The notes below the pieces were generated by a model that ran no database searches, was not told the DNA's origin, and saw only the letters and a program-made list of their open reading frames with translations. DNA of 64,000 nucleotides from Climacium dendroides (Eukaryota; Streptophyta; Bryopsida; Hypnales; Climaciaceae), in contig OX467091.1 of NCBI GenBank assembly GCA_950106755.1, positions 21,345,538 through 21,409,537 on the forward strand, read 5' to 3'. Every line of letters begins with the position of its first letter. Within the stretch, counting starts at the first letter, position 1. Positions 16,395 to 49,931 of the stretch are shown piece by piece. Made by a program: the position numbers and the translations under genes.

Positions 16395-16410
16395 CATGGT
16401 TGTCATAATA
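16387..16410 (+). repeat. Left target duplication and terminal inverted repeat of outer element
   Basis: ACCATATG at 16387-16394 is the target duplication; the inverted repeat CATGGTTGTCATAA starts at 16395. Its mate is at 45538-45559. The mismatch CAT versus CAG at position 3 suggests point mutation of a CAGG end. Confidence 0.92.
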
Positions 16411-18277
16411 GACGGACGTCCGGTTCGCCCGTCCGTTAGAGGGCTCGCCCGTCCGATACAGTCAACACAAAGTTGACTTTATGAAAATGGAAAAATAGGC
16501 CACTGGGATGCGACGTGGATTCTGGAACATGCAAGGCGCGGATGCGATCGTCAGGGCGCGGACGGGATTTAATAAATATACTAAATTAATATGCTTTTTA
16601 CATATTTCCATTTCATATTCCATATTCCAAGTCACTACAACAGTCCATATTTTTATTTAATGTTAGATCATATCACTTTAACACCCAAATAAATTCCATA
16701 TCCTAATCAATCCATCATTCCATATTTTTGCAGGGTGTTAAATTACCTCATTATAAGTTTGTAACACCCAAACCACTTCCACGTCCAAATCACTCCACCA
16801 ATCCACCATTCCATAAATTTTTTGGGTGTTACATTATATTACACTGACACCCAAAGCATTTCCATATTCGAAAGCACTCCACCATTCATATTTCTTTTAA
16901 TGTTAGATTATATAACTCCTTCAAAATAATTGGCCACCCTAAAATAAATTGGTATGCTTTTCAAAAGCTTTGGTCACCCCATCTCCCCTTTTGGACATAG
17001 ATTTTTAAAGCACACTTCCATTCCAAGTGACTGCCATTATTTTTTGGGCGGAATCATTCTCTTTCCTATTTTTTTGGCATCATTACCATAAGTCTTTTAT
17101 TTGAATTCAATGCCACTTGTGTAGGGTGGAATGACTTTTTTTTCCTATTTTATTTTCCGTGATTAGCAAAATTGTTCCATCCCAAGCCGAGGCCATTTCT
17201 TTTTCGTTGATCATTCCCATTCCTTTCATTTTTTGCTCCATAGCAAAACTCTTTCATCCCAAGTGAATTCCATTTATTTTTTTGTGGTATCCCAACTCTA
17301 TTTGAAGTAAATGGTAATTTTTTGGGGTGTTAGTTGAAATCACTTTGACACACTATTTTTTGTGGGCTTCTCTCTCTCACAAAATTGTTCCAACCCAAGC
17401 CCAATCCATTTTGTATTTGTTCCATCATTTCCTTTCCTATTTTTTTTCCATTAATGAACAAAGCTCTTCCCATCCCAACTCTATGCCATTCTTTTCGGTT
17501 CGGATCATTCTTTTTTTTTTTTTTCTTCATTCCTAAAACTCTCCCATCCCAACTCATAGTTATTCTTTTCTTTTCGAACATTTTTTTTGAAAGAAATGGA
17601 CAATTTTCATGTTCTAACATTCCAAATTTCCAATTTCTATTTTGTTTTGGTTCATTAATTAGGAAGACTATTTTATTCGAACTCATAGTTCTGCTTTATT
17701 TGTTCAATATTTCCCTTCCCTATTTTATTTTTCTGATTCACTAAAGTTATTCCATCTGAACTCAAAGCCATTATTCTTATTTTTTTGTTCCATCATTCTC
17801 TGTCCTTTTATTTATTTATTTCATTACTAAAATTATTCCAATCTACTTCAATGTCATTCTTTTTTTTGGTGGATCAATTACTTTCTTTTGGAGGGGGGGC
17901 TTCATTAACTTCTAGAATATAGACCTGTTCTTTTAATGCATTGTTTTTTCCATTTGTTCAAAAAAACAAAAACAAAACATAGACCTACTGAAAAAATACA
18001 GTGTATGTATTTTTATACCAAACTACTGCATTCACTGTTTTTGTAGAGGTTTTACCATCAACTCATAGAATTCATAAAAAATAAAAATGCAATGAGAAAG
18101 AACAATGATATGGCATATTAATATATTATGACATTTTGAGTAGAGAATACATCCGATTTTATATATATTTGAGATGTTTCGCAATTGCCAAGTATGTACA
18201 CATGGTTCTCTACGAGGATGGTTTACCTTCTATGCCTGAACTATATGGTAAACTACAAAAATTAAAAAAACTAAATA
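16411..18277. other. Outer element, left subterminal region and degenerate arrays
   Basis: No gene. 16411-16562 has GTCCG motifs plus inverted units of the GTCCGCGCCCTGA minisatellite (GGCGCGGAC, 16530-16562). 16600-16990 has loosely repeated AACACCCAAA and TTCCATATTC segments. 17020-17900 is a pyrimidine-rich degenerate tandem array (TTCCATCAT..., CCATCCCAA..., ATGCCATT motifs recurring about every 55-110 bp). It matches 22950-24060 in inverted orientation. 17900-18277 is AT-rich 3' flank of the kinase-like gene. Confidence 0.7.
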
Positions 18278-19858
18278 CTATGTACGATAACAACAATCTT
18301 GCATAGTCCAACAGTGGGGGGCCTTCTTCAATGTGTCCAGAACATCTTGCACTATCGCCCTTTCACTCACATCATCTTTCATGAGGCTTCTCAATTTGAT
18401 CTTGAGATTCACATATTGCTCTGGATTCTTCGTTGTAAAGTATTTGGGGTCCCACTCCTCTTGCCAAATTGCAACTGCTATCCATTCCGCCGCATATGCA
18501 TCAGCTACCATGGAGTACAAATGTATTTTCTGCATGGCCTCAATTGAATTAGCTGAACCTTGCTCTCCGTATACATAAAACAACTCAGGGGCTGCAAACT
18601 TTCGCTTTTTCTTTTCCTTCGCTAGGGTCTCCATGTTGGGAAAGCCATACCTTGATGGCTCCTTCTCTACAACTCGGCTAGAAAGTCCCCAATCACATAT
18701 CCCTATGTACACCCTGTGCTCTTTCCAATCATCAAAATGGAGTAAAACATTGGATGGAGTTATGTCGTTGTGCATGTACTGCGCATTGTGGCATTTCCCC
18801 ACAATGACAAGCAAGGAGAGTGCCAAGTTCACTCGGTTCCTTCGGTAAGTTGCAACCCATGCAAGCTCTTCTTTTGTCAGTAGCGTACCTTGTTCACGCT
18901 CAATGTCATCCACATCCACTGATTCATTCACTTTCGAATTGTACTTGAATAAGAAAGAAATTAGAGATCCTCCATTCCACCATAGGGTATAGCCTTCCAT
19001 CGTTTTAGGGTGGATGTACGCAATTCGAATGATGCCAAGATGTATCATTGGACACCCTCCCGCCTCATTGATGATTCCTTGGCGCTTCTCCTTCTCATTT
19101 GTGGTTTTCAAGCTCTTCCCAACAAAAAATATCCAACTAGGAATGCTCTCAAGTTTTGTAAGCATCACCTTCCTCACGGTCCCATATGAACCAACCGCAC
19201 TATGGTCCGGCATGGGGATGACTTTCACTGTACTTTCAAGCCACTTGAATGTTCCACTCACACAATGAGCCGTTATGGCGTCTTCTATTGTCGCTTTCCA
19301 TGGTGCTTGTTTTTTCTTACGCGATGAAGAAAATTGTTGAGCAAAGTTTTGAATGATTTTCAATTTTGCAACCACCTCTTTATTCTGCGTGTCCCAATCG
19401 CTACCATCTTCTTTCTTCCCCGTGTGGTAACACCAATTTGACACTATATTGGTTGTGAAGACAACCACCTGTTTATCCAGCCAGTCTTGGTGCAACCAAT
19501 AATCAGAGAAATTGTTGAATTTCTATGATGATTCAAATTTGGACTCCAGCTCCCTTTGCAGGTCCCTCGTCAGTTTGTGGTATCCTTCTTCGTTGTGCGC
19601 CACATACTCCCTGGTCAACATAGTTGTACTTCAACGAATGTAGAACACCACAACTATTGCTCTCCCTTCAACTATGAATTCGTGTGGAGGCATATGGAGA
19701 TTGGGTGCTTTCTTGCGCTTCTTTTGGCCCGATGAGGAAGGATTCGATGAACTTGAGGCCACCAATGTATTCGTGGATGGAATTACCATCTCACCGACGT
19801 CATCCAAATCTATGAACATGGGACGTTTCTCCGCCAATCCACTCCCTACCCCTGTCAT
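18278..19858 (-). pseudogene. Kinase-like accessory gene of outer element
   Basis: This 527-codon frame starts at the ATG on 19856-19858, about 195 bp downstream of a minus-strand TATATAAA (20053-20060). It is open except for TGA at 19628-19630 and TAG at 19523-19525. The N-terminal 90 residues are basic and low-complexity (GQKKRKKAP). The rest has protein-kinase landmarks: glycine loop VGSYGTVRKV, candidate VAIK-lysine in FVGKSLK, candidate helix-C glutamate in INEAGG, catalytic loop HNDITPSNVLL, metal loop CDWG and AAPEL. HND for HRD and DWG for DFG are unusual and are shared with the inner element's copy. There is no signal peptide or membrane segment, so it is probably intracellular. Substrate and activity are unknown. 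It shares a 500-bp divergent promoter region with the RING gene. Confidence 0.8.
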
Positions 19859-20052
19859 AATGAAGAATATTTTATAAGATGGGCCTCCGTATCTCTCCCC
19901 AAGCACAAAAGTTCAAAAAAAATTAAAAAAAAAAACGGGTCACATATGCGGGCCAAGCCCACCACCCACCAAATTCACTCGCATAAGCCGTTAGAACTAG
20001 CGTGTGAGGCATAGGGCGTGGACTTGGCAAAAAAATGAGGGCGGGGACTCGC

Positions 20053-20060
20053 TTTATATA
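20053..20060 (-). promoter_or_regulatory. TATA-like box of outer kinase-like gene
   Basis: TATATAAA on the minus strand, about 195 bp before the kinase start codon and next to the GC-rich minisatellite. The inner kinase-like gene has the same motif at nearly the same distance from its start. Confidence 0.6.
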
Positions 20061-20064
20061 GTCC

Positions 20065-20275
20065 CCCCTTCACGTCCACGCCCCATCTTCTCGCGTTCCC
20101 GCCCCATCTCTTCACGTCCCCGCCCCGTTCCCACACGTCCGCACCCTGGCATGTGGCGTCCATGCCCTCACTTCACATCCGCGCCCCCACATCGATGGCG
20201 TCCACGCCCTGGCGTACCCCACCTCCCGCTATGTAAAGCCGTCCCCGCCCCATTCGTCCCCGCCCTGCATACTCT
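20065..20275 (+). repeat. Outer-element minisatellite in the kinase/RING divergent promoter
   Basis: Degenerate short tandem repeats built on GTCC(A/G)CGCCC with 17-25 bp spacing, far more GC-rich than the surroundings. It lies between the divergent kinase and RING genes. Related arrays of the same unit lie at 24478-25115 and 45106-45405. Confidence 0.85.
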
Positions 20276-20366: not shown

Positions 20367-22660
20367 ATGGCTACGCCACCAAGAATGACCAAGGAGGAAC
20401 GAGACAAGACCCGACTTCGACCAGGAAATAAACATCGTAAGCGACTGCATGTTCTACGTAACCCAGCCAAGCTTGCATTCAAGGGGTGGGAGGACGTGCC
20501 TGATCCATGGACCTTTGATGACTGTGCCAATTACATCGAGTAGTTCCACATTGACAAGGTCTTCCCAGAAGAGCGCCACAACTTCCACAGACGCTTCCAC
20601 AAGGCAAATTTGAAACATTGCCTTGACGAGGAGTTCACGACTCGATGCATTGAGGTGGTTCAAGTGTTGTATGATGTCGCGACTGTCCCGCGCAATGAAG
20701 TGCATCTTTTCATTGCACGAGGGGTCCATGCAGAGGTGAAGTTGAACAAGAGAGTGGATTGGTCAACTTTGAAGACAATGGGAAAAGATGTCAATATTCC
20801 TACCCCAGCAAATGGATTCATTCCAGGGGGGGTAAAAAGATACCCGGAAGGTGGTCTAGGGAAAACAACTACACAAGTTCAACCACCACCAACATATGAG
20901 ACTCTGGACTCATCTACAGATAGCGACTCTGATGGATCTCGTGTGGTACTTCTAGTCAGCCATAGAACACAACAACAACGTGCTAAAAGGAGAAGGGCTG
21001 CACGTGCAACTGCTAAGGTTTTACCTAAAAATGTTGTGGAGGAACAGGTGCCACCTACAGACGAACCAGTAGTAGGAGTTGTCAATGTTACAACTGCTGC
21101 AAACTGAATTCAGAGTTTGTTGACCGAAGTGAATGACAAGAATGCGGAATTGCATTCTTTGTATAATGATATTAACAAATTGAGGGAAAAAATCCAAGAG
21201 AAGGACAACATCATCAATCAACAACAACGTGACATGGAGGCACTTCGACACACTCTCCAGGCAGCAACAATGGCCAATGTTGGTTAAGATCCACGAGGGG
21301 AAGCACAAGGGCCTTTGAATACTTCTCAAATTCCATTGGAACATGCAGAAGTTGGTGCAACAATGAATACTCAAGATGATTCATTGTCCTTCAGAGAATT
21401 ACCCACGAATGAAGTTGCAGCAATGCCTGTTGACCAAAGCACCCAACTGACGAACGCGCTTGCAAAGAATTTGAGATTGAAAAATCAATTGCATGCGTTG
21501 ATGGAGCAGTATTATCAATGGAAGATGGCATGCGTCTTCAGTGTCGACAGGACTAGGCAAATGGTGGAAGAATTCAAAAAAATTGACCACAATTACGACG
21601 CACACAATCAGATGAGGGTTTTTGGATTGACATCGTGGGCCCTGGTGGATGATCATTTCAACATGGATGAAATGGCGACCATCGACAGTACTGGTCAACC
21701 AACAACCATCAATTGGTCCAAACATGGTTGGGATTTCAAGAATCAAGTTGGCACTGCCGTCGACCATCAGGGCAATCCATTACTACTGTGGCCAAACCCT
21801 TCAACCTTCGTGCATGATGGAACTACATGTCCCATTTGCCTTAATCCATTTGGCCCGGAAGGTGGAATGCACCTAGGCACGAACATTTGTACCATCCATT
21901 CTGCCTAATTAGCTTGATGATTGTTCACCGACATTGTTCATTGTGTAAGGCTCCTTTCCATGAGCGTTTGTATGAGTTGTTTGGATTAGTTCCCTACATG
22001 CCACCGCATTGGGAATACAATGAAGAAAATGCGCCTGATCATTCGTCGAAGTGGGGAACAAACTTGGTATGGAGCTGGAAACTGAACATCCATTCGTTGG
22101 GCAAACAACACCTTTGTACCGAATGGGGTTGGGAAACAGATCCATCTAAAATTGTCAAGGTGTGCCACCACTTGGTTCCACTAAAGGACAACTTCAGCCA
22201 AGGACAACGAAGTTTCTTTTTCCAATGCTTCAATGGGCATTGGAATGAGGCTGGACAATACCTCCAATTTGGCCCTCATCCTCGTGGATGGTTGTGGGGC
22301 GTTGATGGACGTCGCATTACTGATGACCAAGGCATGCGTATCGGGGGAGACATTGACATGCCAAACCCAGCTAAACTTGCACTACTATTAGAGTCAGAGT
22401 GGAGAGAAACCTTTCGAGATGAAGGGATGGACTATTTGATGGAACAACATAGCCCAGGAACTCTGCAATGTCTTGAGAGCCTCAAACAATCACAAATATT
22501 GAGGGCTATATTAGAGGAAGACGGACTAGCAAGAAGAACCCGATCCGCAGTTTGTAGACTTCGTTTGGGCTCAGATGAAGACCTTCCAGTCCGCACCGGG
22601 ACACATGACAATGAGGCTGGACCAAGTGGCAATGCAAGCAGTCCAATGAACATGGACTGA
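20367..22660 (+). pseudogene. Coiled-coil RING-H2 accessory gene of outer element
   Basis: The frame starts MATPPRMTKEERDKTRLRPG and, with a 4-bp deletion restored in register, spans 766 codons. It has in-frame stops at 20541 (TAG), 21105 (TGA) and 21285 (TAA). The deletion, near 21880, removes the third RING cysteine and shifts the frame; the protein resumes as YHPFCLI. Domains: an N-terminal block with PWTFDDC and VDWSTL also found in the inner copy, a charged or coiled middle (LHSLYNDINKLREKIQEKDN), the RING CPIC...C..H..HPFC...CSLC, and a C-terminal domain with FGPHPRGWLW. By family knowledge RING-H2 proteins are E3 ubiquitin ligases; targets are unknown. The 3' flank is AT-rich. Confidence 0.8.
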
Positions 22661-24477: not shown

Positions 24478-25115
24478 GGACGACTACGTCCATGCCTTGG
24501 AGTCCGCGCCCTAACTTGAAGTCCGCGCCCTGACTTTAACTCTAAGCCATAGAGTCTGTGATTCAGCTGCGCTTTCTCAAGTTCCGTCTCTGTGAATTGT
24601 TCGCTCAGGAGTCCGCGCCCTGCGTTCGCACCCTGACACAGCCCATTCAGCGAAAACGTATGTTTAACTTTGCCAACTTCTCTCCCCACAAATATGAGGA
24701 ATTTAAAACAAGGTGTGTCAACATTTAATGTTTCCCTTTCTCCATGAAAAGGAGGGACACCATCTTTCAAGACCATTAAATAGGAAGAAGGAGGGATCCC
24801 ATGTCGGAGGTCAACCTACTTTTCAGTGCATCTCCATGTGCGCACCCCCATTTCTGTTATGGTGTCACTCCCTGGAGTCCGCGCCCTGTTCTGAAGTCCG
24901 CGCCCTGTTCTAGAGTCCGTGCCCTGTTCTAGAGTCCGTGCCCTGAAGTCCACGCCCTATGATGACGTCCACGCCCTGAAATTTGCGCCCTACCTTCCTG
25001 TACCCGCCTTGATGCCAAGAATTCAGGTGTGCGTTGTGAACGTCCTTCACAAATTCTCAGATTGTGCGTCCGCGCCTTGTTGGCACGCACAACGATGAAG
25101 TCCACGCCCCTGCAT
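24478..25115 (+). repeat. Outer-element minisatellite upstream of transposase gene
   Basis: Units of GTCCGCGCCCTG with 16-22 bp spacing at 24478-24650 and 24870-25115, separated by about 220 bp of other sequence. The array ends about 10 bp before a TATATATA box (25124-25131). No coding function is visible. Confidence 0.88.
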
Positions 25116-25123
25116 TCCCTAAG

Positions 25124-25391: not shown

Positions 25392-25723
25392 ATGGCAAGT
25401 CAAAGGAAGCAAACCAAGGAATGGGAACCGTGGCTAAACTTTGCGGAGAATGGGACGAAGGTGACTTGTGTTTTTTGTGCTGGGACCTTCAGTTACAAAC
25501 GTGAGTGTGCTTTTGCACATTTCGGATATGGCTCAAAATCGGAGAGGTCAATTTGTCGAAGTATGCCTCGTGTAGTGCGCCATAGATTTGCCAATTGTGC
25601 AGGTTTTGTCCCACTACGAATGGATCCTAGGGACATGTATGAAGGAGAACCAATTCAAAGTGCTCCATCTAGAATAACTCCACTTGCAAGTTCAAGTGAA
25701 GCCACAGAAAATGAGGTGACGGG
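25392..25723 (+). pseudogene. hAT transposase of outer element, 5' part
   Basis: Starts MASQRKQTKEWEPWLNF and carries a BED-like zinc-finger segment VTCVFCAGTFSYKRECAFAH (Cys-x2-Cys and a histidine), then a linker ending ATENEVTG, where the inner element is inserted. The reading frame continues exactly at 41483 once the inner element and one GTGACGGG copy are left out. The inner transposase has the same layout (KVACKFCEALLSYRKDQLLFH). BED-type fingers of hAT transposases usually bind subterminal DNA repeats. Confidence 0.88.
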
Positions 25724-25733
25724 CAGGGTTGTC
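25716..25733 (+). repeat. Left target duplication and inverted repeat of inner element
   Basis: GTGACGGG at 25716-25723 is duplicated at 41475-41482. The end CAGGGTTGTC at 25724-25733 is perfectly inverted at 41465-41474. Confidence 0.95.
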
Positions 25734-25737
25734 TATC

Positions 25738-26035
25738 CGGACGTGACGTGGGCTTTTCACGTCCGGATGTCATGACGTGTCCGTTCTGACGTGTCGTGAC
25801 ATCGTCAGGATCCGTCACCAATACTGACGTGACCGTTTCAGCATGGATGAAGTCTATCTAACTGTGGACGGCCTCCCGGACAGTAAGCCGTCCTCTGGAC
25901 GGGAAGACGTCCCCCGGATGAGAGGCCGTCCCCCGAACGGCAGGCCGTCCCCCGGATGAGAGGCCGTCCCCAGGACGGCAGGCCGTTTCCGTTGGGCTTA
26001 GGATCCACCCGTCGACACATCAGCCGTCAGTCCGT
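25738..26035 (+). repeat. Inner-element minisatellite upstream of transposase gene
   Basis: GACGTG/GTCCGG repeats close to the terminus, then units of about 20 bp such as GGACGGCAGGCCGTCCCC and GGATGAGAGGCCGTCCCC at 25870-25995. It ends about 35 bp before a TATATTAA box. The unit is a short palindrome-like GACGGC...GCCGTC, different from the outer element's GTCCGCGCCCTGA unit. Confidence 0.88.
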
Positions 26036-26066
26036 CTAGCTGGGTTTTAGGAACGCCGTGAAGGTG

Positions 26067-26260
26067 TATATTAAGGACTTACGCCTATTTAAGATTACTT
26101 TTCCTTGCTGATTTTGGCTTTCATGACTTGGTTGGAGTACAACCATTGCGGTAAAGCAAAATCCAAGAAGAATGTGTTGTGGTGGCACTTGTTGTGAGAG
26201 CAAAAAGTATTGCTTCTACATCGCATTTCATACAGAATACTAATCTTCTTTCTTGTGCAG
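26067..26260 (+). promoter_or_regulatory. TATA-like box and leader intron acceptor of inner transposase
   Basis: TATATTAA at 26067-26074 and a pyrimidine-rich acceptor TCTTTCTTGTGCAG ending at 26260, 29 bp before the first ATG. This suggests a non-coding first exon plus an intron. The donor was not assigned with confidence. Confidence 0.5.
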
Positions 26261-26289
26261 GGGCAAGTAGGAAAGAATAGATAAGAGCA

Positions 26290-29289
26290 ATGGGTGGAGG
26301 AAGATCACATTGGGAACCTTGGTACACACTACGAGTAGATGGAAAAGTTGCTTGCAAGTTTTGCGAAGCTTTGCTAAGCTATCGAAAGGATCAGTTGCTT
26401 TTCCATTTGGGATACCGACGAAATGACAAGCTCCCTGGAGTGAGAGCCTGCACTAAAGTTAATGCAGCCGTGAAGCTAATGTTTTATAATTGCGGAGGGG
26501 ATATACCTGCAAGCACTTCGGACAGGAGTGGACAGGATGTGGAAGTGACATCTCCATCAATGGTACTTCCGAGTGTTGTACGTGGTGAGCAAGAATCTGA
26601 TTCCTCAATCTCAGGAAACGATGGAAGAGAAAACACTAGGGGACAAAGCTCTCAAGTACAATCATCAGACGCACCCAACCTGAGTTTGGCCCACAGTCGA
26701 TCAATGAGGCAATTGTCTGTGCAGGAAGGAATGAATACATCAAACAAGCAAGTATTAGACAAAAAGTGGGCTAAGTTCTTCTATGAAGCCAATATACCTT
26801 TCAATATAGCGAGGCATCCGGTTTTTTTGGATGTTGTGAAATCAACATCAGAATTGAGAGTTGGCTACAAACCTCCAGCGTACCATGCACTTCGTACAAA
26901 CCTCATGAAATCTACAAAAGACGAAGTGGCGGCAATGGTAGCGGAGAAGACAAAGGCACCAATCTACAAGTACGGCGTTACAATATGCTCTAATGGATGG
27001 GACAATGTCAACCATCGACCATTGATGAATGTCATGTTGGCATGTACAAGTGGAGAGGTATTTCTTGGATCCATAGACACAACAGGCAAACGCAAAGATG
27101 CTACTTATGTGGCTAATTGCATGGGTGATTATATTGACAGGGTAGGGGCGCAAAATGTGGTACAAGTTTGTACAGACAATGCAGCGAACATGTTGGTTGC
27201 TAGTGCTTTGTTACTTCGTCGATTTCCACACTTATATTTTCAAAGGTGTTCAGCACATGCACTTGACCTTCTACTTGAAGATTGGGGCAAACAAGATTAG
27301 ATAAAAAGTATGGTCAAGAAAGCCAAGTCAATTGTGAAATACATTCGCACACATCACATGCCACTTGCAATTTTTCGACGACATTCTCCTAATCTCATTT
27401 TGAAGAATCCTGTTGAAACACACTTTGCAACCATGTTCTTTATGATTGAGCGTTTGGTACATGTGAGGGTAGCGATAGAATCAACAGTCCACGATCCGCA
27501 ATGGAATGAGTACACAGAGAGATTGACATCAGAGGAAAAGAAAAGAAAAGCCAACGATGTGCAACGGTATGTACGAACGGATGAATTTTGGAGGAGATGT
27601 TTAAACTTTGTGTATATAGTGGAGCCCGTATTGGTTGCTCTTAGAGAGTTTGATGGCAAGCACCCATGCTTAGACAAGGCATGGCTTGTGATGAAAAAGG
27701 TGGAAAAGCATGTTTTGAAACTACGGGATCCACCATTTTCTTTGGAACCATGGTATGCAATTCCTGCCATCAATGATTTTTACAAGCGTTGGGACATGCT
27801 AAGGACAGATTTGCATTATGTTGGGGCTCTATTGAATCCTTTTTTACTTGACGAAGTCTTGCTAATGGATGATGACGAGGCAAGAGAAGGCATATTGAGA
27901 GTATTGCGCAAATTGGCTGTTCCAGATCAAGCATTTGCTTCAGCTTTGTCTGAGTACCAAGCATTTTGAGATTGTCGGGGCATTTTTGGTGGACTTCCCG
28001 ATGTAAACACTTTAAATTTGCAGCCTCACGAATGGTGGGACCTTCTCGGAGCCGGTGCTCGTACACTTACACCAATTGCAAAAAAGATCCTCGCCCAAGT
28101 GTGCTCTGCATCGTCGTGTGAACGCAATTGGAGCATGTATTCGTTTGTCCACAACAAATCACGCAATAGACTGACATCAGAGCGTACTCAGGAATTGGTT
28201 TACATTTACACCAATTCCAAAACTCTTAGAGAAAGGGCTGCAGCAAATCCGACAAGGTGGTACACCGAGAACATGATGTCAGAAGATTTCATGACCGATG
28301 AATCGGATGGTTTAGACCGTGGTTCGGTTCGCTCTAACCCCAATGATGACGATTCAGATGATAGTTCCAATGATGGCGATGACCCACCATTCCATGGATT
28401 TCAGGAGGCGAGAGGAGTGCGTCCTCTAATTGATGCATCTGTATTTGACTTTGAAGAGGGGGATAATAACGACAATGACCACGAGGGATATGATGGAAGT
28501 CCACCACAAATGCCACAAGGGTGGAATGCTGGGCCAAGTGGGGGAAATACGAATGAAGACATTGTGGCACCGAGACCACTAAATCCAAATCCTATCGATG
28601 TACAAGTTGATGCCCCAATGGAAAGAGATAGTGTTGACATGGAAAGAGGACGTGAACAAGACGTAGTAGTACCACAATCATTGCCTACGAAGACCACCCA
28701 CGGAGAAGGGCCCCCTTATGGTGGAGAATTAGATATGCCCCCTCCAAGTCAAGGGGATGTTGCACTACAACGTCAAACACCAATACTAGAGAATCTACAA
28801 ATCCAAAATTCAGCTAGGCCATCTAATTTCGGAGTTCGTCTACATGGACCCACTTCAACGATAGGTACACGATTGGCTAGTATGGTGTCCCAGCGTACGA
28901 CTACAAACCCGACTTCATTGCACCCACCTACACGTGCCAATAATCGAGGGAAGCATCCATGACATGAAGGTACTACTAGTCAACGTGTGAGTCCTAGAAC
29001 ACGTAGAAGACTAACGAGAGAAGAAGCGGCATCCCAACCATTTTCAAGAGAAGTTCACATAGGAGGGCCTAGTATAGATGGCATTATGGACGCAACGGGC
29101 CAACGGCCTCTTCGAACGTTGTCTTCTATAATTCGACCACAACGAAATCAAAATTTGAATGCCTCTAGCGAAAGTGGTAGTGCAACATCTAGTGATGATG
29201 GCGAGTCCATCAGTGCTAGTATAGGCGAAGATGGTGAGGTTCCAGGAGATAGTGATTATCTAGGGACAATGCCTCGACAAGGTCCATGA
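26290..29289 (+). pseudogene. hAT transposase of inner element (DUF659, dimerisation domain)
   Basis: A 1,000-codon frame from ATG 26290, broken by in-frame TAG at 27298, TGA at 27967 and TGA at 28960. In order: zinc-finger CKFCEALLSYRKDQLLFH (residues about 18-35), DUF659/RNase-H core with CSNGWDNVNHRPLMNVM, the second catalytic aspartate in CTDNAANM (about 294), CSAHALDLLLEDW, the DPPFSLEPW region, and the hAT dimerisation motif SCERNWSMYSFVHNKSRNRL (about 613-632). An extension of some 365 residues follows, rich in Asp, Ser and Gly, ending with a basic stretch. The first catalytic aspartate (SDGW in the outer copy) is asparagine (codon 26992-26994). Stops and the changed active site make it inactive. 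Confidence 0.92.
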
Positions 29290-31793: not shown

Positions 31794-31805
31794 CCCATTT
31801 CCTCT

Positions 31806-34434: not shown

Positions 34435-34612
34435 AAAGATTTTATTGACTTGATGTACATAAAAATTTCTTTGTAAAGGATTTTATTACGTTGACTTGAT
34501 TGATCCTATGTACAATATATCTTTACTAAAGATTTTATTGACTTGATGGAATTAATTCTATGTACAATACATCTTTGCTAAAGATTTTATTGACTTGATG
34601 GATTTGATACTT
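34435..34612 (+). repeat. Tandem repeat of about 52-64 bp, three units
   Basis: GATTTTATTGACTTGATGG recurs with TATGTACAATA(C/T)ATCTTT between copies. No coding capacity. Confidence 0.8.
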
Positions 34613-35254: not shown

Positions 35255-35471
35255 TGTGAAGCCAAGAATACCTTAACATCCATAATATTCCTTGTACCTT
35301 TATAATATCACATTTTAACACTGTGTGATGTTACAGAAGTGGAGTGGCTGTTGCAATTTTGTATTATAACACGGTGTTAAAATGTGATATTATAAAGGTA
35401 TTGGGCCTCTGTAATATCACACTCTGTAAAATTATGGTATTACAAAGGACCTTGTGATTTTAGTAGTATGA
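35255..35471 (-). mobile_element. Helitron relic, 5' end portion, reverse orientation
   Basis: Ends with ATTTTAGTAGTATGA, the reverse complement of the Helitron 5' end TCATACTACTAAAAT. It contains several TATAATATCAC/GTGATATTATA palindromes found in Helitrons 1 and 2. The 3' part is missing. Confidence 0.55.
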
Positions 35472-36193
35472 TAGTGGTTGGCGCTTGCTATGCTACACAT
35501 TCATCATTTGAATTTTATTGAATTTTTATGTATTAGATAAAATAAAGAACACAAATTTCAATAAACCTTCAAATAAAAGTTTCAATAAACCTTCCATTTA
35601 TTACTAAAATCTTTATATAATTTTGTTTATAAATAAGCATATATTAAAATGTACAATAGAAATTTATTGAATGATGAATAAAATATATGCAATGGGCAAT
35701 ATGTAAAAGATCTACATGTATTATAATGCATTCCATGATTGACTTTGTTGTTACAAACAATGGCACCCCCAAAATTGGGTGAATTGAAAAGAAAAACTTA
35801 TAAATTTCAAAACTTCGTGAACAATTTAATTGTTGTGAAATCCAAAATCACTTCAATTGAATAAATTTCTCAAATCATTTGGAAGTAGCAATAGAATTTT
35901 AAAATCATAAAAGTTCAAGGCTTACAAAAACACAAAATCATAGAAGTGCAAAGAAGTGTAAAGCCAAGAGAAGCAATGATATTTATATATGCATGATTAG
36001 AAGTAATTTTACAATATATTGGAAATTATTATTTTAAAGACTTATTGAAATCGTTATCATACATTGTATTCAAATATATCAAAATTTCATCAATATGTGA
36101 TACAATGAATGCGTAGCATAGCAAGCACAAGCCCCTAGTATTAATGGTAACATTTGTAATATCCCAGAGGCCATTATGATTTTAGTAGTATGA
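35472..36193 (-). mobile_element. Helitron relic A, reverse orientation
   Basis: Read on the minus strand it begins TCATACTACTAAAAT (36193), has the ACTAGGGGCTTGTGCTTGCT block at 36135, resembles Helitrons 1 and 2 throughout and ends GCCAACCACTA at 35472. The CTAG terminus is mutated to CTAT. It lies head-to-tail with the units on either side. Confidence 0.7.
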
Positions 36194-36610
36194 TGATGAT
36201 AGTAGTTGGTGCTTGCTATGCTACACACTCATCATTAGAATTTATTAGAATTTTAATGTATTTGACAAAATGCAGAACACAAATTCCAATAAATTTTCAA
36301 ATCCAAATTATTAAAATCTTTATATAATTTTTTTATAAATAAGAATATATTGAAATATAAAATAAATATTTATTGAATGATGAATGAAATATATCCAATG
36401 GTGAATGTTGTAAAAGATAAAATATATAATAAAATGCATTAGTAATTTGACTCAATTGTTACAAACAATGGCAAAACAAATTGAAGAATTGAAAAGAAAA
36501 CTTGTAAATCTCAAAAAATTTGTAAACAACTTTGTTGAGAGATCCAAAATTGCTTCAATTGAATGAATTTTTCACATCATTTGGTAGTAGCAATAGAAAA
36601 TTTCAATCAT
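36194..36610 (-). mobile_element. Helitron relic B, truncated, reverse orientation
   Basis: Begins (3' end) with AGTAGTTGGTGCTTGCTATG, collinear with relic A and Helitron 2. It breaks off at about 36606, where the inner-element minisatellite starts; its 5' half is missing. Confidence 0.65.
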
Positions 36611-36616
36611 GAACAC

Positions 36617-36832
36617 ACAACGGGCAGGCCGTCCAGCTCAACGGACAAGCCGTCGAGGGGACGGGCAAGCCGTCGAGGGGACTCGCGGATGGCGCCGTAA
36701 TGATTTTCCAATCCTCTTTTCGGCGCTCCGAGCCTTCGGACGGCTTTCCAAACCTGACCCGAACCTTCGTGGACGGATTGACCGTCCATTCCAGGGCCGT
36801 CCCACGTCCTTGGACGGTCTGGATTTGAGTTG
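36617..36832 (+). repeat. Inner-element minisatellite next to RING promoter
   Basis: Units such as ACGGGCAAGCCGTCGAGGGG and GACGGTCTGG, the same type as 31806-32070. It ends about 55 bp before the TATAAATA box at 36887-36894. Confidence 0.85.
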
Positions 36833-36886
36833 GACATCATGATTATGTACTAATCACCGAGCGTAATTGGGTCGGTAATTCGGAGG

Positions 36887-36894
36887 TATAAATA
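36887..36894 (+). promoter_or_regulatory. TATA-like box of inner RING gene
   Basis: TATAAATA, 213 bp before the RING start codon. The leader contains CTACAG and GGGACAG acceptor-like sites just before the start, so a leader intron is possible. Confidence 0.6.
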
Positions 36895-37106
36895 TGTTTT
36901 TTTGGCTCATTTGAAATCGCTTCCTCTTTTGAGTTGCTTTGTTCTGGCTTGAGAAAGCTTTGCATTGTAATTCGAGAGGAAGTGTTATACATCTGGTATT
37001 TGTTTTGCCACTTTTCAGTTGCCTTCACGCAACAGAAGGCAAAGCAAATTGTTAGTGTATCCGCAAACAGACTACAGGTACAGGGAATTTGGGACAGGTA
37101 TCCAGA

Positions 37107-39221
37107 ATGGACGGAGAGGATGCAGCACGAGGTTCAGGACATGGAGGTGAGCCCCCAAGTAAAAAGAAGAGGGGGAACAGGGCAACCTTGGATTGGGGCA
37201 CACTCAATGCCCCGGAGATTATGGCAAACGAGAGGTGGATGAATGAAGATTCACCGTGGACAAGAGTGACGTGTTGGAAGTTCGTAGATTGGGCCCACAT
37301 CAACCGCCATTGGGCACCTGACCGGTACGAGGTAAATGTGAAATGCGGGGTTGTAAATTTCGACCAGTGCCGACATCCGCACTTCAAGAAGAGATTGATT
37401 GAAGTGGCATTGGCGATTTGGGGTTCGAGATCCAAAAGAGATGGGACCCTTTCGTTGTGCCAAATGGCATATGCGGAAGTTTTTCTTGGGAAGGATGTGG
37501 ATTGGAGAACCTTCCTCGGCAAGATGCGTCATGGTCAATCACCAAATAGACCTCGCAGCATTCCACCAAACCCTGCCGTGCCATTGGACAATGTACCCAA
37601 TGTGCAAGAAAACCCGGAAGAGCAAGTGGAGCAACCCGGGATGGAGGTGATGGAGGTAGAGGGTGGCATGGGCACCGAAGAAGACCTACCCAATGAAGAT
37701 GCGATTGGTGGAGTGGAAGGTGAAGGTAATGAAGTACTTCGCTTGCGACAATTAGTCAAAACACTGCAAGCAGAAAAGGAAGCCGCATTACGACAACATG
37801 CTGTAGAGTTGGAAGGGCAAAGGGCTAGGGTGAAGGCCCTTATGGATGAGAATGCAAGACTCATCGCACGCGAGGCCGACCTTGTAGCATGTGAAAGGCG
37901 GTTGAATACGGATGAAATTCCACCACTTGATGTGGTGGTCGAATGTGCTACATACGATGCAGACGAAGACAGACCAGGCCCCAACAATGCAAACGAGTTT
38001 AGGGTGCGGTCACGGTCCTTGTTTCCAAGTGTTGGAGGTGCCACGTTGGATATTATGCATGCACGTGCGGAGCGAGTTGAAGCAGAGGTTGGAAGTACTA
38101 AAGTCCACGTTGAAGAATTGACAAACGCTATGCGGGCTTTGGAACTTCGCGCCAACAAAACCGAGGCAGATGTGGTGGTGCTTACTACAGCTCAAGCTGG
38201 CTTGGAGCAGACCATGACCGCATTAAGTGCTCAAAATATGCAGTTGGTCCAAAACCCGCAGAAGGAACGCATATTGCTTCAAATGTGCAACATAAAGTTG
38301 ACATGCAGCTTAGCACTAAGCGAGGTTGAGCAGATGCAACGTGAAGTGAAGAGAGTGGCTGCGAAGTTCAATGATGGCGGCGAACGTTATTTTGGCTTGA
38401 TCTCATGGCCTCGAGTGGAAGAAATGTTCGCTGATGATTTGCTAGTGAAGCTCAAGAATGCAAGCATCGATTGGAATAGTTCTCCACACTTGGAATTCCA
38501 ATACAACACGGAGCGCTATCAATACGAGCCAGCGAACTGCGATGGGATTAGGCCACTACTGTGGCCTTTGGTTCCCGATTTTGTACAAGACGGCACCACA
38601 TGTATTATGTGCCAAGAACCATTTGGCCCCGAGGGTGGATGGCATCTTGGTACATGTGGCCATTTATACCACCCCATGTGCCTCATTCCACACATGGTCA
38701 CTCGAAAAAGATGTGCACAATGCAAGGCTCCATTTCATTCGAGGTTGTACAAAATGTTTGGCCTCCAAGCCCACATGCCTGAACATTACGAGCACAATGA
38801 AGAAAATTTACCGGGGCCCGCGAATAGAGCGCATTGGAAGATGGACATGACTTGACTTTGGAAGTGGGGCCACGACAATCGACACCTCCCGGCAAGAACG
38901 GTCGCGGAGATACACTGGGAGAATGATGACCAGGTGACAAAGGTGATTAAGAGGGTAATTGGAGCTGGTGATCTAGGGCGGCGATTATATTTTGCTCAAA
39001 TTGCTGGTGGACATTGGGACCCGGACCTCTCCATTTTTGTGCGTGCACCACATCCACAAGGCTTAATGTTTAACTCTCAAGGCATGCCTGTCGGATTTGA
39101 AGGTGAATTGAGTTTTGAGGAAGAAATGAACTACATTGAAAACAATACTTTCCATGAGCCTGCACTTGTGAGTGCCATTTTCTCCCATTTACACAACAGA
39201 TACGATCGTGACGCACATTAG
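37107..39221 (+). pseudogene. Coiled-coil RING-H2 accessory gene of inner element
   Basis: A 705-codon frame from the ATG at 37107, interrupted only by TGA at 38853-38855, after which the same frame continues to TAG at 39219. N-terminus SKKKRGNR is basic; residues about 30-145 form a conserved block (PWTRVTCW, VDWRTFLGKM). Residues about 205-275 and 310-430 are predicted coiled coil (LRQLVKTLQAEKEAALRQH). RING-H2 at about 499-543: C-x2-C-x14-C-x-H-x2-H-x2-C-x10-C-x2-C, complete. A C-terminal domain (WDPDLSIFVRAPHPQGLMFN) also occurs in the outer copy. RING-H2 proteins normally act as E3 ubiquitin ligases; the partner is unknown. The truncated product would still contain the whole RING. Confidence 0.85.
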
Positions 39222-40851
39222 CTTTTGACGACTTTGCAATCAAGACAAGAGTTGCAAAGATTTTTGAGAGCAGTATAGCACGAGGCATTGTAATTGAAGA
39301 AGTAGAATAGATAGTTTTGGATGACGCTGTGTATAAATAGATAGATGCATAGAATTAAATTTCTAAAGTTGTACAAAGCAGAGCAATGTAAAGCCTAAAC
39401 CAATGTATCACGTTTTGATGGATTTATAAAACATTGTACATTTATCATTTTCTTTTCACCTCGTGTATTGTTGCTTTGCCTTTGTCTTTTGGGTTAATCC
39501 ATTGGCCGTTTTCCTATTAGTGTAGAAGAATCTTATATACTTAGATGGTAGAACCCTCACAGATTATTTTTTTTTAATTTCTTGCCAAACAATGTAAAAT
39601 CAATTTAGCAACTTTTGTAATTAGAAATTCAATAACGAACTCTAATCTCTTATCCTTAGAATCCTAGATGTCCAAGGTTTGCTTTGAGCTTTGTAGAATT
39701 TGCTCTAAATTGAACAACATGTCAACATTTTCATTAGGTGTATCAATTTTTAAAAAATTGTAATTGTATAAATTCGAACTAGGCATGTTAGAAACCTCAT
39801 AGAAAAGGAATCCTAAACAATATCACTTATGGAGTAAAAGATTATAATGTTTGCCCAGGAGGGTGTTAAAACTAAAAAAATGATGTGAAGTCTTACAATC
39901 CTCTTTTCACAAGTCCAATTTAAAAAGTTGGTGACCAAACAAATATGAGGTTAAAGGACCTAATATGTATAACCCCAATTAATTTATAGCTTTTAAAAAT
40001 CTATACTATAATTTTCTTTAATTTTAAATGAATTTTGAATGTGATTTTTCCTCCAAGATCCAATGTTTTTGAGGCACATTTCCAAGACCTCTCAATACTA
40101 CAACAAGTCAAGATTGCAATAGGTACCCTTGCACAAAGTTTAGAATAGAAAAATCACTATCACATATTTTTAAGAACAAACTATTGATGCTATAACTAGA
40201 ATTCAAGAACAACTTTTTAACTTCAAAGTTTGAACAACACCAGATTTGGGTGCCTTGGACATGTAGGGGTTAACCATTTTTTGGACGATGAATAAATTCA
40301 GCTTCCTATTTCAGTTTGGTTTTTACTTGAATCAAAGTCATCATAATTTTTGGTGATACTTTATCTAGTTGACTAGTTCATGTCTTATCTAATGGTTAGA
40401 TTTTTTGTTCTTAGAATACACATTTTTCTAAAATTACAAATGTGGAAGTGTGTCAAGTGGTCAACTTGCATTGACCCTAGTTCACAATTGGATTTGCAAA
40501 AATGAGGTCATAGATGTAAAGAGTATAAAAATTTCAAAAAATCACGATGTCAACGCAACCTCATTTTAAGTCCATTCCAACAAATTTCAATCAAAGAATG
40601 ATAATATTTTGCTTGTAATTGAATTTTGAAGGAATTTTTAATTTTTCCTTTCAAAATTTATAGAAAAAGATTGGTGATAGCATTGGTGGATCTAACCTTA
40701 TGGATGGAATCTACAACTCAAAATCTACAACTTCTGTTTGTATACCAATTCCAAAATATTCTTCTAAATCATACTTTATAATGGTATTTTCCAAATTGTC
40801 ATTTTGGGAGAAGAGTCTAGATGTTTAGGGGTTAAGTGCAACAAATTCAAA
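39222..40851. other. AT-rich 3' region downstream of inner RING gene
   Basis: No gene. AT-rich with no recognisable open frame. Parts of it (39930-40240) resemble 54890-55260 upstream of TNL copy B (shared CCCAATTAATTTAT and AATAGAAAAATCAC), so it contains another dispersed repeat. Confidence 0.55.
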
Positions 40852-41345
40852 GCCCGTCCAGCCCGACCGTCCATCTCGACCATCCAACCAGATCGTCCAT
40901 CTCGGCCGTCCAGCCAGACCGTCTAGATTGACGGTCTAGATCGACCGTCCATCTCGGCCGTCCAAATCGACCGTCCAGCTAGACCGTCTAGATCGACCGT
41001 CCATCTCGACCGTCCAACCGGACCATCCAGATCGACCGTCTAGCCAAACCGTCCATCTCGACCGTCCAGCCAGATCGTCTAGATCGACGGTCCAGATCGA
41101 CCGTCCATCTCGGCCGTCCAACCGGACCGTCCAGCTAGATCGTCTAGATCGACCGTCCATCTCGGCCGTCCAACCGGACCGTCCACATCGATCGTCCATC
41201 CAGACCGTCCAAATCGACCGTCTAGATCGACAGTCCATCTCGGCCATCCAACCGGACCGTCCAGCCCAACTGTCCACATCGACCGTTCATCCGACCGTCC
41301 ATCGCAGCTGTCCAGAGCGCCCGTCGACGAAGCTCGTCCATCCAT
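40852..41345 (+). repeat. Inner-element minisatellite near right end
   Basis: About 25 units of 18-20 bp alternating GACCGTCCATCTCGGCCGTC and CCAACCGGACCGTCCAGAT. Open frames on either strand (repeated MDGRSRRS, for example) are artefacts of the repeat. Confidence 0.92.
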
Positions 41346-41394
41346 TTCTGTAGTCTGAATCATCCTCTGTCGCCGGTTGTTATTTGGATTTCAT

Positions 41395-41482
41395 CCTAAC
41401 GGACGCCGGGGATGGATCCTGACGTCCGTCCGGACATCCTGACGGACGGACGCGACGTGACGGGGACAACCCTGGTGACGGG
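41395..41482 (+). repeat. Right subterminal region, inverted repeat and target duplication of inner element
   Basis: Dense GTCCGG and CCTGACG(G/T) motifs at 41395-41463, the end GACAACCCTG at 41465-41474, and the target duplication GTGACGGG at 41475-41482. Confidence 0.93.
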
Positions 41483-44400
41483 TGGGGTCAATGGTGGGAG
41501 AGCGGAAGAAAGGGCAAACGTTTCAGAAGGAAATGAAACCCTACAAACGTCCAATAGCCTTGTTGCATCAAATTTTACGAGATCTGGATCATTACGTCAG
41601 CAGCGCATGGTGGACGCATTCAACATTGCAAAGAGGAAGGAGTTGGATGAGAAGTGGGCAAGTTTTTTCTATGAAGCGAATGTGCCATTTAATGTGGCAA
41701 GGCATCCAGCCTTCTTCGAGGCTGTGAGGGCAACTTCATTGGCGAGGTTTGAATATAGTCCACCTTCTTACCATCAGTTCAAGACTAATTTAATTGAACT
41801 GAGGAGGTTGCAAATTGAGAAGCAGATTGAGGAGAAGGTTGGTTTTGCTGTAAAGCACTACGGGGTGATGATATGCAGCGATGGTTGGGATGATGTCAAT
41901 CGGAGGCCTCTCATGAATGTGATGATGTCATGCCCCGCAGGTGATGTATTTTTGAGGTCGATTGATACTACCTCACAAAAGAAAACCATGCGCTTTATAG
42001 TGGACCAAGTGAAAGTGTACATTGAAAAGGTGGGTTCCAAATATGTGACACAAGTGTACACAGATAATGCAGCAAACATGCTTGGGGCATTGCAAGACAT
42101 CACTCGAACATACCCGCACATTTTTGCGCAAGGCTGCATGGCACATGCACTAAATCTCATGTTGGAAGATTGGGCCAAAATCCAGGAATTTGCCGATTTG
42201 ATTGTCAGGGCAAAAAGATTGTGCCAATACATTCGAAACCATCATGTGACCATGTCGGTTTTCCGTGAGTTGAGTTCGAATCTGCAACTCGTAGTGCCTA
42301 TTGAAACCCGCTTTGCTTGTAATTTCCTCATGTTGCAACACCTAGTGAGACTCAGAGAAGTCTTGGAGCGGTTGAATAACCACCCGCGTGTTCTAAATTA
42401 CTTTGATACCTTACGGAACAAACAAAATGGCCCGCAGTCAGCTACCGCTGCACGTAATGTCAAAAACACCATTCAAGATGTGGCCTTCTGGCAACGATGT
42501 GTGAATTACGTGTACATGACTAAAGACGTATTGAAGGCTTTGCATATGTTTGATGGACGAGAACCAGCCATGGGTCGGGCGTGGCTCATAATGCACAATT
42601 TACGAGGGCACGTGTATTCTTTAAGAGAACCACCTTTCAGCTTACATGATGACATAGCGGTCACTTTGGAAGAATCTTTCAATGAAAGGTGGGAGATGGC
42701 TTTTGAAGATACACACTACGCTACGGCCCTTTTGAATCCATACCTCTTGGATAATGTGGCGCTCAGGGTGGATGGAATTGCCCTACGTGCATTGTACAAA
42801 GTCATCCGTAAGATGGCAGATTCAGTAGGTGTGGATTTCGATGATGTGCTGGCGGAATTAACACAATTTGAGGAGGGTACTGGACCGTACAGTGCAGCTG
42901 AGACACCCAACATCCGTGTGACACAAATGCTTCCCCACCAATGGTGGCACAGGGTTGGAGATCGGGCTCTTTCTAAAATTGTCGTGCGTTTTTTATCCCT
43001 CACATGTTCCGCAAGCTCTTGTGAAAGGAATTGGAGTAACTATTCATTTGTTCACAATAAGGTCCGAAATCGATTAGCCCCCGAAAAGGCAGAGTCATTG
43101 GTATATATTTATACCAATAGCCGTGTACTTCAGTAGCGACCAGGAGCCGATCCAGTTTGTTGGTATGATGCAAATATATACTCGGAGGATTCCGATCCAG
43201 ATGCCCTTGGTTCAATCTCGGTGAATGAACGCAATCGGGAATTCGACGCAATGCAAGCAGAGGAAGAAGAAGAGGTTGATGGAGATTGAAGCCAATCTAA
43301 ACCCTCAAGAGTATCCGGCAAACCCAGATCTTTGGAGGCGAGGAGCCGATCACCTCGAGGAAGCGAGGAACTACTATGAAGATGATGACGATGGAGAGGA
43401 GGAATTCCTTCATGGTCGTTGGGGTCCTTGGGGGCCACCCATTCCACCCAATCCACGTCGCCATCCTTCATCTCCACTTCCTCAAAATGAAGGGAATGTT
43501 GAAGTCCAAGCTTTGTCGTCTTCTTTAGAGACCGACAATCCAAATGACGATAACGTCGATGATGGTATTTCTCATAACAACAACGACGATGATGACAACC
43601 TCCCTCTAGAAAATGGCGGTGGAAATGGAAATGGTGGTGGAAATGAAGATGGCGACGGAAACAGGGGGAGGAATGCAAATCCAAATCGTGGAGGATCTTC
43701 TCACAATCAAGATGGCAATACAGGGCTTATGGGAGTGAGGCCATCAATTCGTAACATTAGAACTATTCAAGGACACCATGACAAAAACGTTAGAAATGCA
43801 AGAGTGGCACACCCTATTGCAAGAAATCAACTGGTAATGTGGTAATGTGAGAAAGCCTTTTGATCCAGAGCGTGTGGACCATAATGATGTTTTTGCATTT
43901 GTGGACCCTGCAGAAGACCTTGCCCGTGTACCTGCTCTAATTGCGGGCCATCCTGCTATTTCAGAGCAAGGTATACAAACGCCATATTCCGTAGACCCAT
44001 CTTCAATAACAATTTCCAATGCCATCCGAAGACCTTCTCAAGAAAGGTTAGGCTCAGTGGAGAATGTTCATTTGACTCCTCAAAGCGTTTTACGTGGTAC
44101 TACTAGGGGTAGACCACCTATAGCTCCTCGGCCCCCCGTTCGTCATGAAGTAGGGCAATATCAACAAGGCCGTGGAAGGGCTGGAGGCCGTGGAGGGACT
44201 CGAGGGACTCGCGGGCGTGGAGGGAGTAGAGGCCGTGGACAAATAGAAGGTCAACAAATTGGAGAAGCATCATCATCAAGGCCTACTAATCGTCCACTTC
44301 TCGGAATTGGGGCAAGAGATCCAAATAGGGTGGTAGAACCGTTCCTAAGTACATACGTACCAGGACCTAGTGGGTCAACCCCGGCATTTGTTGTTCCAAC

Positions 44401-44698: not shown

Positions 44699-45105
44699 GG
44701 TTATAGAGTTGCATCAATGGTAGATCTCGGGTCTTTAAGAGTTGAAGAGAATTGTAGCAATTGGAAGAAAGATGGACGAGAAGCCAAAGGATTGTCTTAG
44801 ATAACCTATGAGAAAGTGGGCGTATTTTGGAAGTATAGATTCATTGTATTGTTATTGTACTTTGCAATGCATGAATTTTATAAACAATTTTGGTTATCAC
44901 AAACATTGCAGCCTACTATTATTTTTTTGCATTTTTGTATTTGACGTGCATGTTGGAAACATTGGTGAGTGCAATCATGTAAAATATATTGTAGTTACTG
45001 GTTCTTTTAAATGCAGTGGGGTCATTACCTTGTTCAAAAAAAAATATGTATATATATTACATATATTGTAGAACACATAAATAAAATCCACCATTACCTG
45101 ATTAC
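44699..45105. other. 3' flank of outer transposase gene
   Basis: AT-rich, no gene. Probably contains the transcript end; there is no unambiguous signal. Confidence 0.5.
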
Positions 45106-45405
45106 CCGTCCGCGCCCTGTCTGTGACGTTGAGGTCCGCGCCCTCACACTCATGGTGAAGTCCGTGCCCTAAATGTACGAGTCCGCACCCTGACACTGAA
45201 GTCCGCGACCTGACAGCACAAGTCCGCACCCTGACGTTGAAGTCCGCGCCCTGACGCTGAAGTTCACGCCCTGATGCTCACGCTGAAGTCCGCGCCCTGA
45301 CTGCACAAGTCCACGCCCTGACACTCACGCTGAAGTCTGTGCCCTGACTTCACGAGTCCACGCCTTGATGGTGGCACAGTGACATCCGCGCCCTGGATTC
45401 GTTGT
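45106..45405 (+). repeat. Outer-element minisatellite near right end
   Basis: About 16 units of 17-20 bp: GAAGTCCGCGCCCTGAC and variants. Same unit as at 24478-25115; single inverted units lie near the left end (16530-16562). Confidence 0.92.
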
Positions 45406-45454
45406 TTGAGGTGACATGTCATTCAAAAAAATTCCACAACTTTGAAAAATTAAA

Positions 45455-45559
45455 GCCGTCCAATTGGTCCGGACCGTCCGTCCGTCCGGTCCGGTTTGCC
45501 CGTCCGTCCGGGACGTCCGACGACCCTAACTCGCCCGTTATGACAATCCTGACCATATG
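45455..45559 (+). repeat. Right subterminal repeats, inverted repeat and target duplication of outer element
   Basis: GTCCG-rich run at 45465-45520, inverted repeat TTATGACAATCCTG ending at 45551, target duplication ACCATATG at 45552-45559. GATGGCTTTATA follows, which continues the target repeat as in copy 1 at about 12137. Confidence 0.92.
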
Positions 45560-49930: not shown

Positions 49931-49931
49931 A

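Follow-up and report, generated by a model that had tools for sequence, protein, structure and literature searches.

Our analysis of a 64,000-nucleotide window of the Climacium dendroides genome (contig OX467091.1; G000:C40:21345538-21409537 in our numbering) indicates that it holds two transposons of the hAT type, one inserted into the other, and that each carries, beside its DUF659 transposase, a kinase-like gene and a third gene with a RING-H2 region. They belong to two families, hereafter B (the outer element) and A (the nested one). The three-gene architecture, i.e., a transposase, a kinase of its own family, and a third protein recognized by its N-terminal domain (with RING-H2 in families A, B, and C), is almost certainly real. 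The broader reading, namely that both belong to a DUF659 clade of autonomous-type hAT transposons, 13-17 kb in size, whose standard set of three genes stands under repeat-coupled control, has in our view about an even chance of being right.

The outer element is delimited by terminal inverted repeats (TIRs; left CATGGTTGTCATAA, right CAGGATTGTCATAA) identical at 12 of 14 bases, and by a perfect 8-bp target-site duplication (TSD), ACCATATG, on both sides, in agreement with a first-pass annotation of the window. Without the nested element and one copy of the inner duplication it measures 13,398 bp. A paralogous empty site (L039), 108 kb downstream, matches the outer flanks joined at one ACCATATG over 1,541 bp at 95.5% identity, and reads ACCATGTG, with a single target copy and without the insertion. 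Since this paralogous site holds one target copy, the outer insertion is proved, and positions 16395-45551 are a genuine hAT-type insertion. Its genes are ordered kinase (-), third gene (+), and transposase (+). The nested element has ends whose first 10 bases are identical (10/10) and a perfect TSD of its own, GTGACGGG; it interrupts the outer transposase gene, and joining the flanks yields a single frame across the site with no stop. Its gene order is transposase (+), kinase (-), and third gene (+). At the DNA level families A and B share four short matches, a similarity barely detectable, while their transposases are 44% identical over the aligned part and their kinases about 24-32%. The same annotation had described the interval as one giant element, as the 29 kb spanned by the outer ends and duplication could suggest; it is in reality an element of 13.4 kb plus a 15.75-kb nested element of another family, and a single 29-kb element is practically impossible, given that the inner 15,751 bp are bounded by separate TIRs and a separate 8-bp duplication, that family A recurs alone at six other sites, and that the family-B copy on contig C17 lacks the insert.

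Both families were found as units elsewhere in the genome. Ten loci, chosen among the 16 best-scoring DUF659 matches, partly for their long open frames, were read with 10 kb on each side. All ten hold a family-A transposase (91-94%) and the family-A left end with at most 2 changes per 20 bases; in nine a kinase on the other strand follows the transposase at about 1 kb, and in eight a RING gene falls inside the stretch read. L011, whose transposase is shortened, has neither accessory gene, and L017 has no RING gene in the stretch read. The right end was present in 6/6 loci where it was fetched, with perfect and mutually different 8-bp duplications, and these six copies, 13,576-14,422 bp long, all have the three genes between ends that read CAGGGTTGTC, sometimes with one or two bases changed. 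A second family-B copy, on C17, is 16,595 bp long and has both ends, a perfect ATTTTCAT duplication, and its three genes ordered as in the outer element of the window. The right end of family B reads CAGG(G/A), and the left end reads CATGG in both copies read, which looks like a trait of the family. The 8-bp TSD is perfect in the two elements of the window, in 6/6 family-A copies, and in the one further family-B copy (1/1). Transposase, kinase, and third gene move as one unit in families A and B. L011 also holds, at positions 2222-8405, 6.2 kb of sequence flanked on either side by TTCCGGAC and with a CAGGGTTGTC right end; the trio queries match nothing in it, and it may be a non-autonomous relative.

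Linkage was computed in this one genome (412.6 Mb, 123 contigs), and the counts hold among the matches listed. The family-B kinase search gave 105 rows (the best 101 of 690 candidates scored), the family-B transposase search 81 rows (the best 79 of 819), and the RING search 144 rows (the best 142 of 585). Where a locus had been split into pieces, its second row was excluded from the joins (4 kinase, 2 transposase, and 22 RING rows); a few double pieces (such as C35:10927754/10928257 and C40:8211466/8212128) and the tandem copies of contig C39 are still included. At an identity of at least 80% and a distance of 20 kb, 69 scored family-B transposases have a kinase nearby in 50 cases, a RING gene in 60, both in 49, and either in 61; for 78 scored kinases the figures are 47 with a transposase, 67 with a RING gene, 46 with both, and 68 with either, and for 63 scored RING genes 49 with a transposase, 54 with a kinase, 43 with both, and 60 with either. 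Chance linkage is expected at about 1% per locus. Orientation is equally regular: the nearest kinase-RING pairs within 15 kb are head-to-head in 73/79, the RING gene is upstream of the transposase and on the same strand in 64/67 pairs within 20 kb, and the kinase is upstream of the transposase and opposite to it in 48/51. The family-A kinase search gave 130 rows (the best 129 of 528 scored), of which 102 were used after the exclusion of 13 second pieces and of 15 family-B rows that the family-B kinase search had given already; at 85% identity or more, 47/73 kinases have a scored DUF659 match within 8 kb, and in 47/47 linked cases the kinase is opposite and downstream. As for the tandem copies, C39 has between 4.40 and 4.58 Mb five family-B-like kinase matches (79-80%), spaced almost evenly about 44.6 kb apart. 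Five RING and four transposase matches are spaced likewise, and the pattern may reflect either a large tandem segment or an assembly artefact.

Two more divergent families, C, known from match positions, and D, read as sequence like A and B, extend the comparison. For 7/8 family-C transposases (62-64% to B), a RING gene at 55-58% lies no more than 30 kb away, and family-C kinases (54-61%) adjoin RING genes (54-59%) at other loci. Between B and C the three genes diverge roughly in parallel (62-64% for the transposase, 54-61% for the kinase, and 53-59% for the RING gene). Among the matches listed, all three genes of family C were found together at one locus only, C2:49556617, spanning 28 kb, where the kinase is placed by its 28% identity to A. 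Among 13 kinase loci at 20-22% identity to A, five lie 9.8-10.7 kb from a scored DUF659 match. Family D was read at one such locus (L037/L038), in the order transposase, third gene, and an opposite kinase of 563 residues with the motifs HND, DWR, and WWNG. The first ~150 residues of its third protein match the profile of the A/B third-protein N-terminal domain with 61.4 bits, and the reversed sequence scores nothing. No element ends were found in the stretch read, which the left end may precede. To judge from the sequences read, the constant parts are the transposase, the kinase, and the N-terminal domain of the third protein, and gene order is free. The first-pass annotation had taken the cargo for a stable part of the family and not for a chance capture, a reading that would fall if the accessory genes lay mostly outside such ends or if the interval as a unit were absent from all allelic or paralogous sites; both checks came out in its favour. 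Recurrent ends, TSDs, and linkage support the stability, except that the RING is not universal, being absent from the single family-D copy read; 68/78 scored kinase loci lie within 20 kb of a transposase or RING match; and the unit recurs with other 8-bp duplications, beside the paralogous empty site.

The transposase of the outer element scores 121.5 bits for DUF659 and 33.5 for Dimer_Tnp_hAT, and PF04937 and PF05699 are above cut-off in the transposases of the window; the motifs DGW, TDN, and CERNWS align in families A, B, and D, and the family-A copy aligned has its catalytic E replaced by K. The outer kinase reaches 29.5 bits for Pkinase, just below the cut-off of 31.7, and both kinase copies of the window are below it, whereas their relatives P0001 and P0035 exceed it (33.4 and 34.5 bits). 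A set of 5.8 billion proteins, predicted from public genomes and metagenomes, yielded 49 kinase relatives, of which 24, at 26-72% identity to P0001, were aligned. Four residues are the same in 24/24, namely the Lys of the active site, the Glu of helix C, the Asn of the catalytic loop, and the Asp of DWG; the Asp of HND is kept in at least 90%. The structure model of P0001 (predicted local distance difference test, pLDDT, of 85) has a classical kinase fold preceded by a helical N-terminal domain; Foldseek returned 1829 matches at E<=0.001 (best E 5e-9), and the best 50 solved structures are 12-19% identical. Scans of viral_contigs and genome_contigs, which start from two short peptide patterns, gave 17 and 29 pattern matches and no confirmed kinase relative among them. 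P0002, labelled as a Bacilli metagenome-assembled genome, is 73% identical to the transposon kinase and is probably plant DNA contaminating a bacterial bin. Of the RING-H2 gene named at first pass, the outer copy has a frame change that breaks its RING into two pieces, neither with a Pfam match; it was recognized by its similarity to intact relatives. The nested copy scores 21.6 bits for zf-RING_2 against a cut-off of 27.3. Across the nested copy and four relatives this score runs from 16.2 to 27.3 bits, with the C3H2C3 pattern complete by eye; P0053 reaches the cut-off, the other Pfam matches of the third proteins are weak and below theirs, and the structure model of the third protein is poor (pLDDT 47).

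In A, B, and D a GC-rich and mostly CpG-rich repeat, different in each family, is clustered before every one of the three genes; in A and B there are further clusters of it at the two ends. In the outer element, 32/32 GTCCGCGCCCTG sites (at most 2 mismatches) fall in four zones; the nested element and the remainder of the window contain none, and in 20 dinucleotide-shuffled sequences there were 0-1. The C17 copy has GTCCGCGCCCTG clusters in the same four places, of which the one upstream of the transposase occupies 11.4-12.0 kb in element coordinates, and an extra block at 8.2-8.4 kb. The family-A repeat, GGACGG, occurs 45 times in the window copy versus 0-6 times in 20 shuffles, and over seven family-A copies 386/400 sites lie in the terminal zones or in those before the three genes, which together make up 21-25% of each element. 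At the one family-D locus read, GGTCGG is clustered before the transposase, the third gene, and the kinase, and a further cluster follows the transposase on its 3' side. Array stretches that reach 50% GC have a CpG observed/expected ratio of 0.64-1.55, mostly at least 1.0, in a window of 39% GC.

Table. Features of the two nested elements, in positions of the 64,000-nucleotide window
Feature	Position	Strand	Basis or remark
Outer TSD left, ACCATATG	16387..16394		Perfect 8-bp repeat
Outer hAT element, family B, carrying nested element	16395..45551	+	TIRs, TSD, empty site, second copy
Outer left TIR, CATGGTTGTCATAA	16395..16408	+	CATGG form, shared with C17 copy
2 GTCCGCGCCCTG-type repeats, left subterminal	16532..16563	-	At most 2 mismatches
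Outer kinase-like gene	18278..19858	-	2 in-frame stops; HND and DWG retained
6 GTCCGCGCCCTG-type repeats, divergent kinase/third-gene promoter region	20012..20267		At most 2 mismatches
Outer third gene: N-terminal domain, helix-rich middle, RING-H2 region, C-terminal domain	20367..22660	+	Stops, frame change inside RING
11 GTCCGCGCCCTG-type repeats, upstream of outer transposase	24502..25079	+	At most 2 mismatches
Outer hAT transposase, 5' part, ending at nested insertion	25392..25723	+	Reading frame
Nested TSD left, GTGACGGG	25716..25723		Perfect 8-bp repeat
Nested hAT element, family A, 15,751 bp	25724..41474	+	Own ends, TSD, 6 further copies
Nested left end and transposase 5' region, 7 GGACGG	25724..26280		Motif count
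Nested hAT transposase, DUF659 118.9 bits, Dimer_Tnp_hAT 37.5	26281..28965	+	2 in-frame stops
Nested kinase-like gene	29938..31599	-	2 in-frame stops
GGACGG-containing array upstream of nested kinase	31600..32100		Motif count
GGACGG-containing repeats upstream of nested third gene	36500..37106		Motif count
Nested third gene with RING-H2, zf-RING_2 21.6 bits	37107..39290	+	In-frame stops
GGACGG / 13-bp repeat array, nested right end	40854..41474		Motif count
Nested TSD right, GTGACGGG	41475..41482		Perfect 8-bp repeat
Outer hAT transposase, 3' part, with DUF659 and Dimer_Tnp_hAT	41483..43136	+	Pfam
13 GTCCGCGCCCTG-type repeats, right subterminal	45108..45395	+	At most 2 mismatches
Outer right TIR, CAGGATTGTCATAA	45538..45551	-	TIR match
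Outer TSD right, ACCATATG	45552..45559		Perfect 8-bp repeat

The outer element is flanked by a duplicated block of genes for TIR-domain and leucine-rich-repeat proteins (window positions 143-8788 and 53482-63886, 83-92% identical); the empty site lies in another paralogous stretch, at a distance of 108 kb from the left flank. To its left lies a repeat block at 14146-16282, possibly made of retroelement pieces; the nested-element stretch 35452-36613 is the reverse complement of the repeats at 14930-16282. To its right, positions 49842-51924 hold a fragmented transposase-like gene (zf-C17orf113 46.7 bits, DUF4371 13.9 bits), probably of an unrelated hAT.

By the features tested, families A and B are hAT elements: with Ac and Tam3 they share the DUF659/RNase-H core, the DGW/TDN/CERNWS motifs, the C-terminal dimerisation domain, CAGGG-type ends, and 8-bp duplications. 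Typical hAT elements, however, measure a few kb and have one gene, whereas those described here are 13-17 kb long, with three conserved genes and family-specific arrays. In En/Spm, a CACTA element, subterminal and promoter repeats are read by the element-encoded TnpA. The likeness to the TnpA/TnpD system lies in repeats at both subterminal regions and the promoter; the superfamily and the proteins are different, and here the repeats also precede separate internal genes. For private repeat arrays, the nearest precedent would be VANC of the VANDAL elements. VANC is reported to bind a short motif arrayed in VANDAL non-coding regions and to cause loss of methylation in its own targets, while the arrays differ between related elements, expanding and contracting by tandem repeats (PMC5735166). 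In common with our families are element-specific short motif arrays in non-coding regions and accessory proteins beside the transposase (PMC5735166); VANDAL elements, by contrast, are of the Mutator-like (MULE) superfamily, and here the motif is GC-rich and a kinase is present. A second source describes rust-fungus IS3EU elements with alpha-kinase and TET/JBP genes and hAT7 elements with TET/JBP genes (PMC12730594), and on this account accessory enzymes do occur in DNA transposons, the hAT lineage included. IS3EU resembles our elements in having a kinase gene opposite to the transposase, and hAT7 in being a hAT lineage with an extra gene, the orientation being conserved in some; IS3EU differs in its superfamily, its fungal hosts, and an alpha-kinase that is not of the classical fold, with no mention of a RING, and hAT7 in its 7-bp duplications and fungal hosts (PMC12730594). 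No report of a hAT element with kinase or RING genes was found among the matches listed from the open-licence PubMed Central literature, searched by title and abstract opening, with Repbase Reports outside its scope.

It is tempting to see the repeat clusters as predicted binding sites of an element-encoded protein. The third protein would be the first-choice binder because its N-terminal domain is common to the families read; the transposase would be the second because hAT transposases bind subterminal repeats. The bound protein would couple transcription of the three genes to transposition and would keep the element expressible despite host DNA methylation, as VANC does for VANDAL and TnpA for En/Spm, while the kinase could tune the binder, the transposase, or a host factor, and the RING could remove a host or element protein. 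Silencing pressure is plausible because family-A copies (L009-L028 and the window) have an excess of transitions, the expected trace of cytosine methylation: transitions and transversions in the three genes stand at 317:24, 198:19, and 277:34 (about 8-13 to 1). The excess also fits methylated, decaying family-A copies. That the accessory genes have a regulatory or counter-silencing role, of the kind suggested at first pass, is a possibility we would place somewhat short of even; the family-specific arrays would make it more concrete. The fullest version, an undescribed hAT class with a three-gene set, a family-private GC-rich operator read by a protein of the element, and a kinase switch, in which each family would escape silencing without waking its relatives, is put forward tentatively and is on balance doubtful.

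The best-surviving alternative, in our estimate possible though rather unlikely, is that the accessory proteins serve transposition itself, by controlling how the transposase complex assembles, how stable it is, or when it acts on long ends that bear arrays, and have no anti-silencing role. The arrays do lie at both ends as well as upstream of genes, 13-17 kb is large for a hAT element, and the gene set is kept while its order varies; yet arrays also precede internal genes far from the ends, where transposition would not need them, and most hAT elements move with the transposase alone. It seems unlikely that the kinase and the RING protein act in trans on host immunity or protein turnover, with the arrays as by-products of repeat expansion near GC-rich promoters. 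Kinase and RING would make a plausible host-directed pair, and the RING-H2 of P0053 is at the Pfam cut-off (27.3 bits), but the family-D copy keeps the N-terminal domain without a RING, and the repeats are family-specific, GTCCGCGCCCTG being confined within the window to its own element. Very improbable is that host genes were captured once and have been carried along as passengers without function. The decay of the window copies (2 in-frame stops in each kinase and in the nested transposase, and several or some in the third genes) and the near-neutral family-A substitutions after insertion would agree with it; however, the kinase active site is kept at 26-72% identity to P0001, a conservation hard to reconcile with a functionless gene, 7/13 loci at 20-22% identity to family A have open kinase frames of 516-568 residues with no stops, the three genes diverge roughly in parallel between B and C, and linkage survives changes of gene order.

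Several observations weigh against a standard gene set under repeat-coupled control. Of the scored DUF659 matches (the best 150 of 552 candidates), 94/150 lie farther than 20 kb from any scored kinase; hAT elements lacking the trio may be present in this genome, although the 94 are no count of them, the kinase matches being lists of the best scores. The family-D third gene is without a RING and ends in a low-complexity tail, and the family-D kinase has DWR instead of DWG, so neither RING nor DWG would be indispensable, to go by the copy read. The signal of selection within families is weak, with a ratio of nonsynonymous to synonymous polymorphism (pN/pS) of 0.5-0.7 at about 8-13 transitions to one transversion and with a synonymous:nonsynonymous ratio about equal for shared and private changes. 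As to the arrays, GGACGG is not confined to family A, with 11 occurrences in the outer element and 6 elsewhere in the window; the motifs were chosen after inspection, so that the shuffles, which cover families A and B, overstate their rarity; and the family-A copies are related by descent, the independent cases being three families and not seven copies. The placement of the arrays is a stronger argument than their rarity in shuffles.

hAT elements are the textbook one-gene transposons, and an element-borne kinase together with a regulator-like third protein suggests a self-contained control kit that is unusual for this kind of transposon. The kinase and the third protein have been kept across families whose kinases share only 20-32% identity, and each array is a ready probe against each protein and methylation data. 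If repeat-coupled control of the three-gene set is true, it would bring a principle known from VANC and TnpA into another superfamily and would add phosphorylation to the contest between transposon and host.

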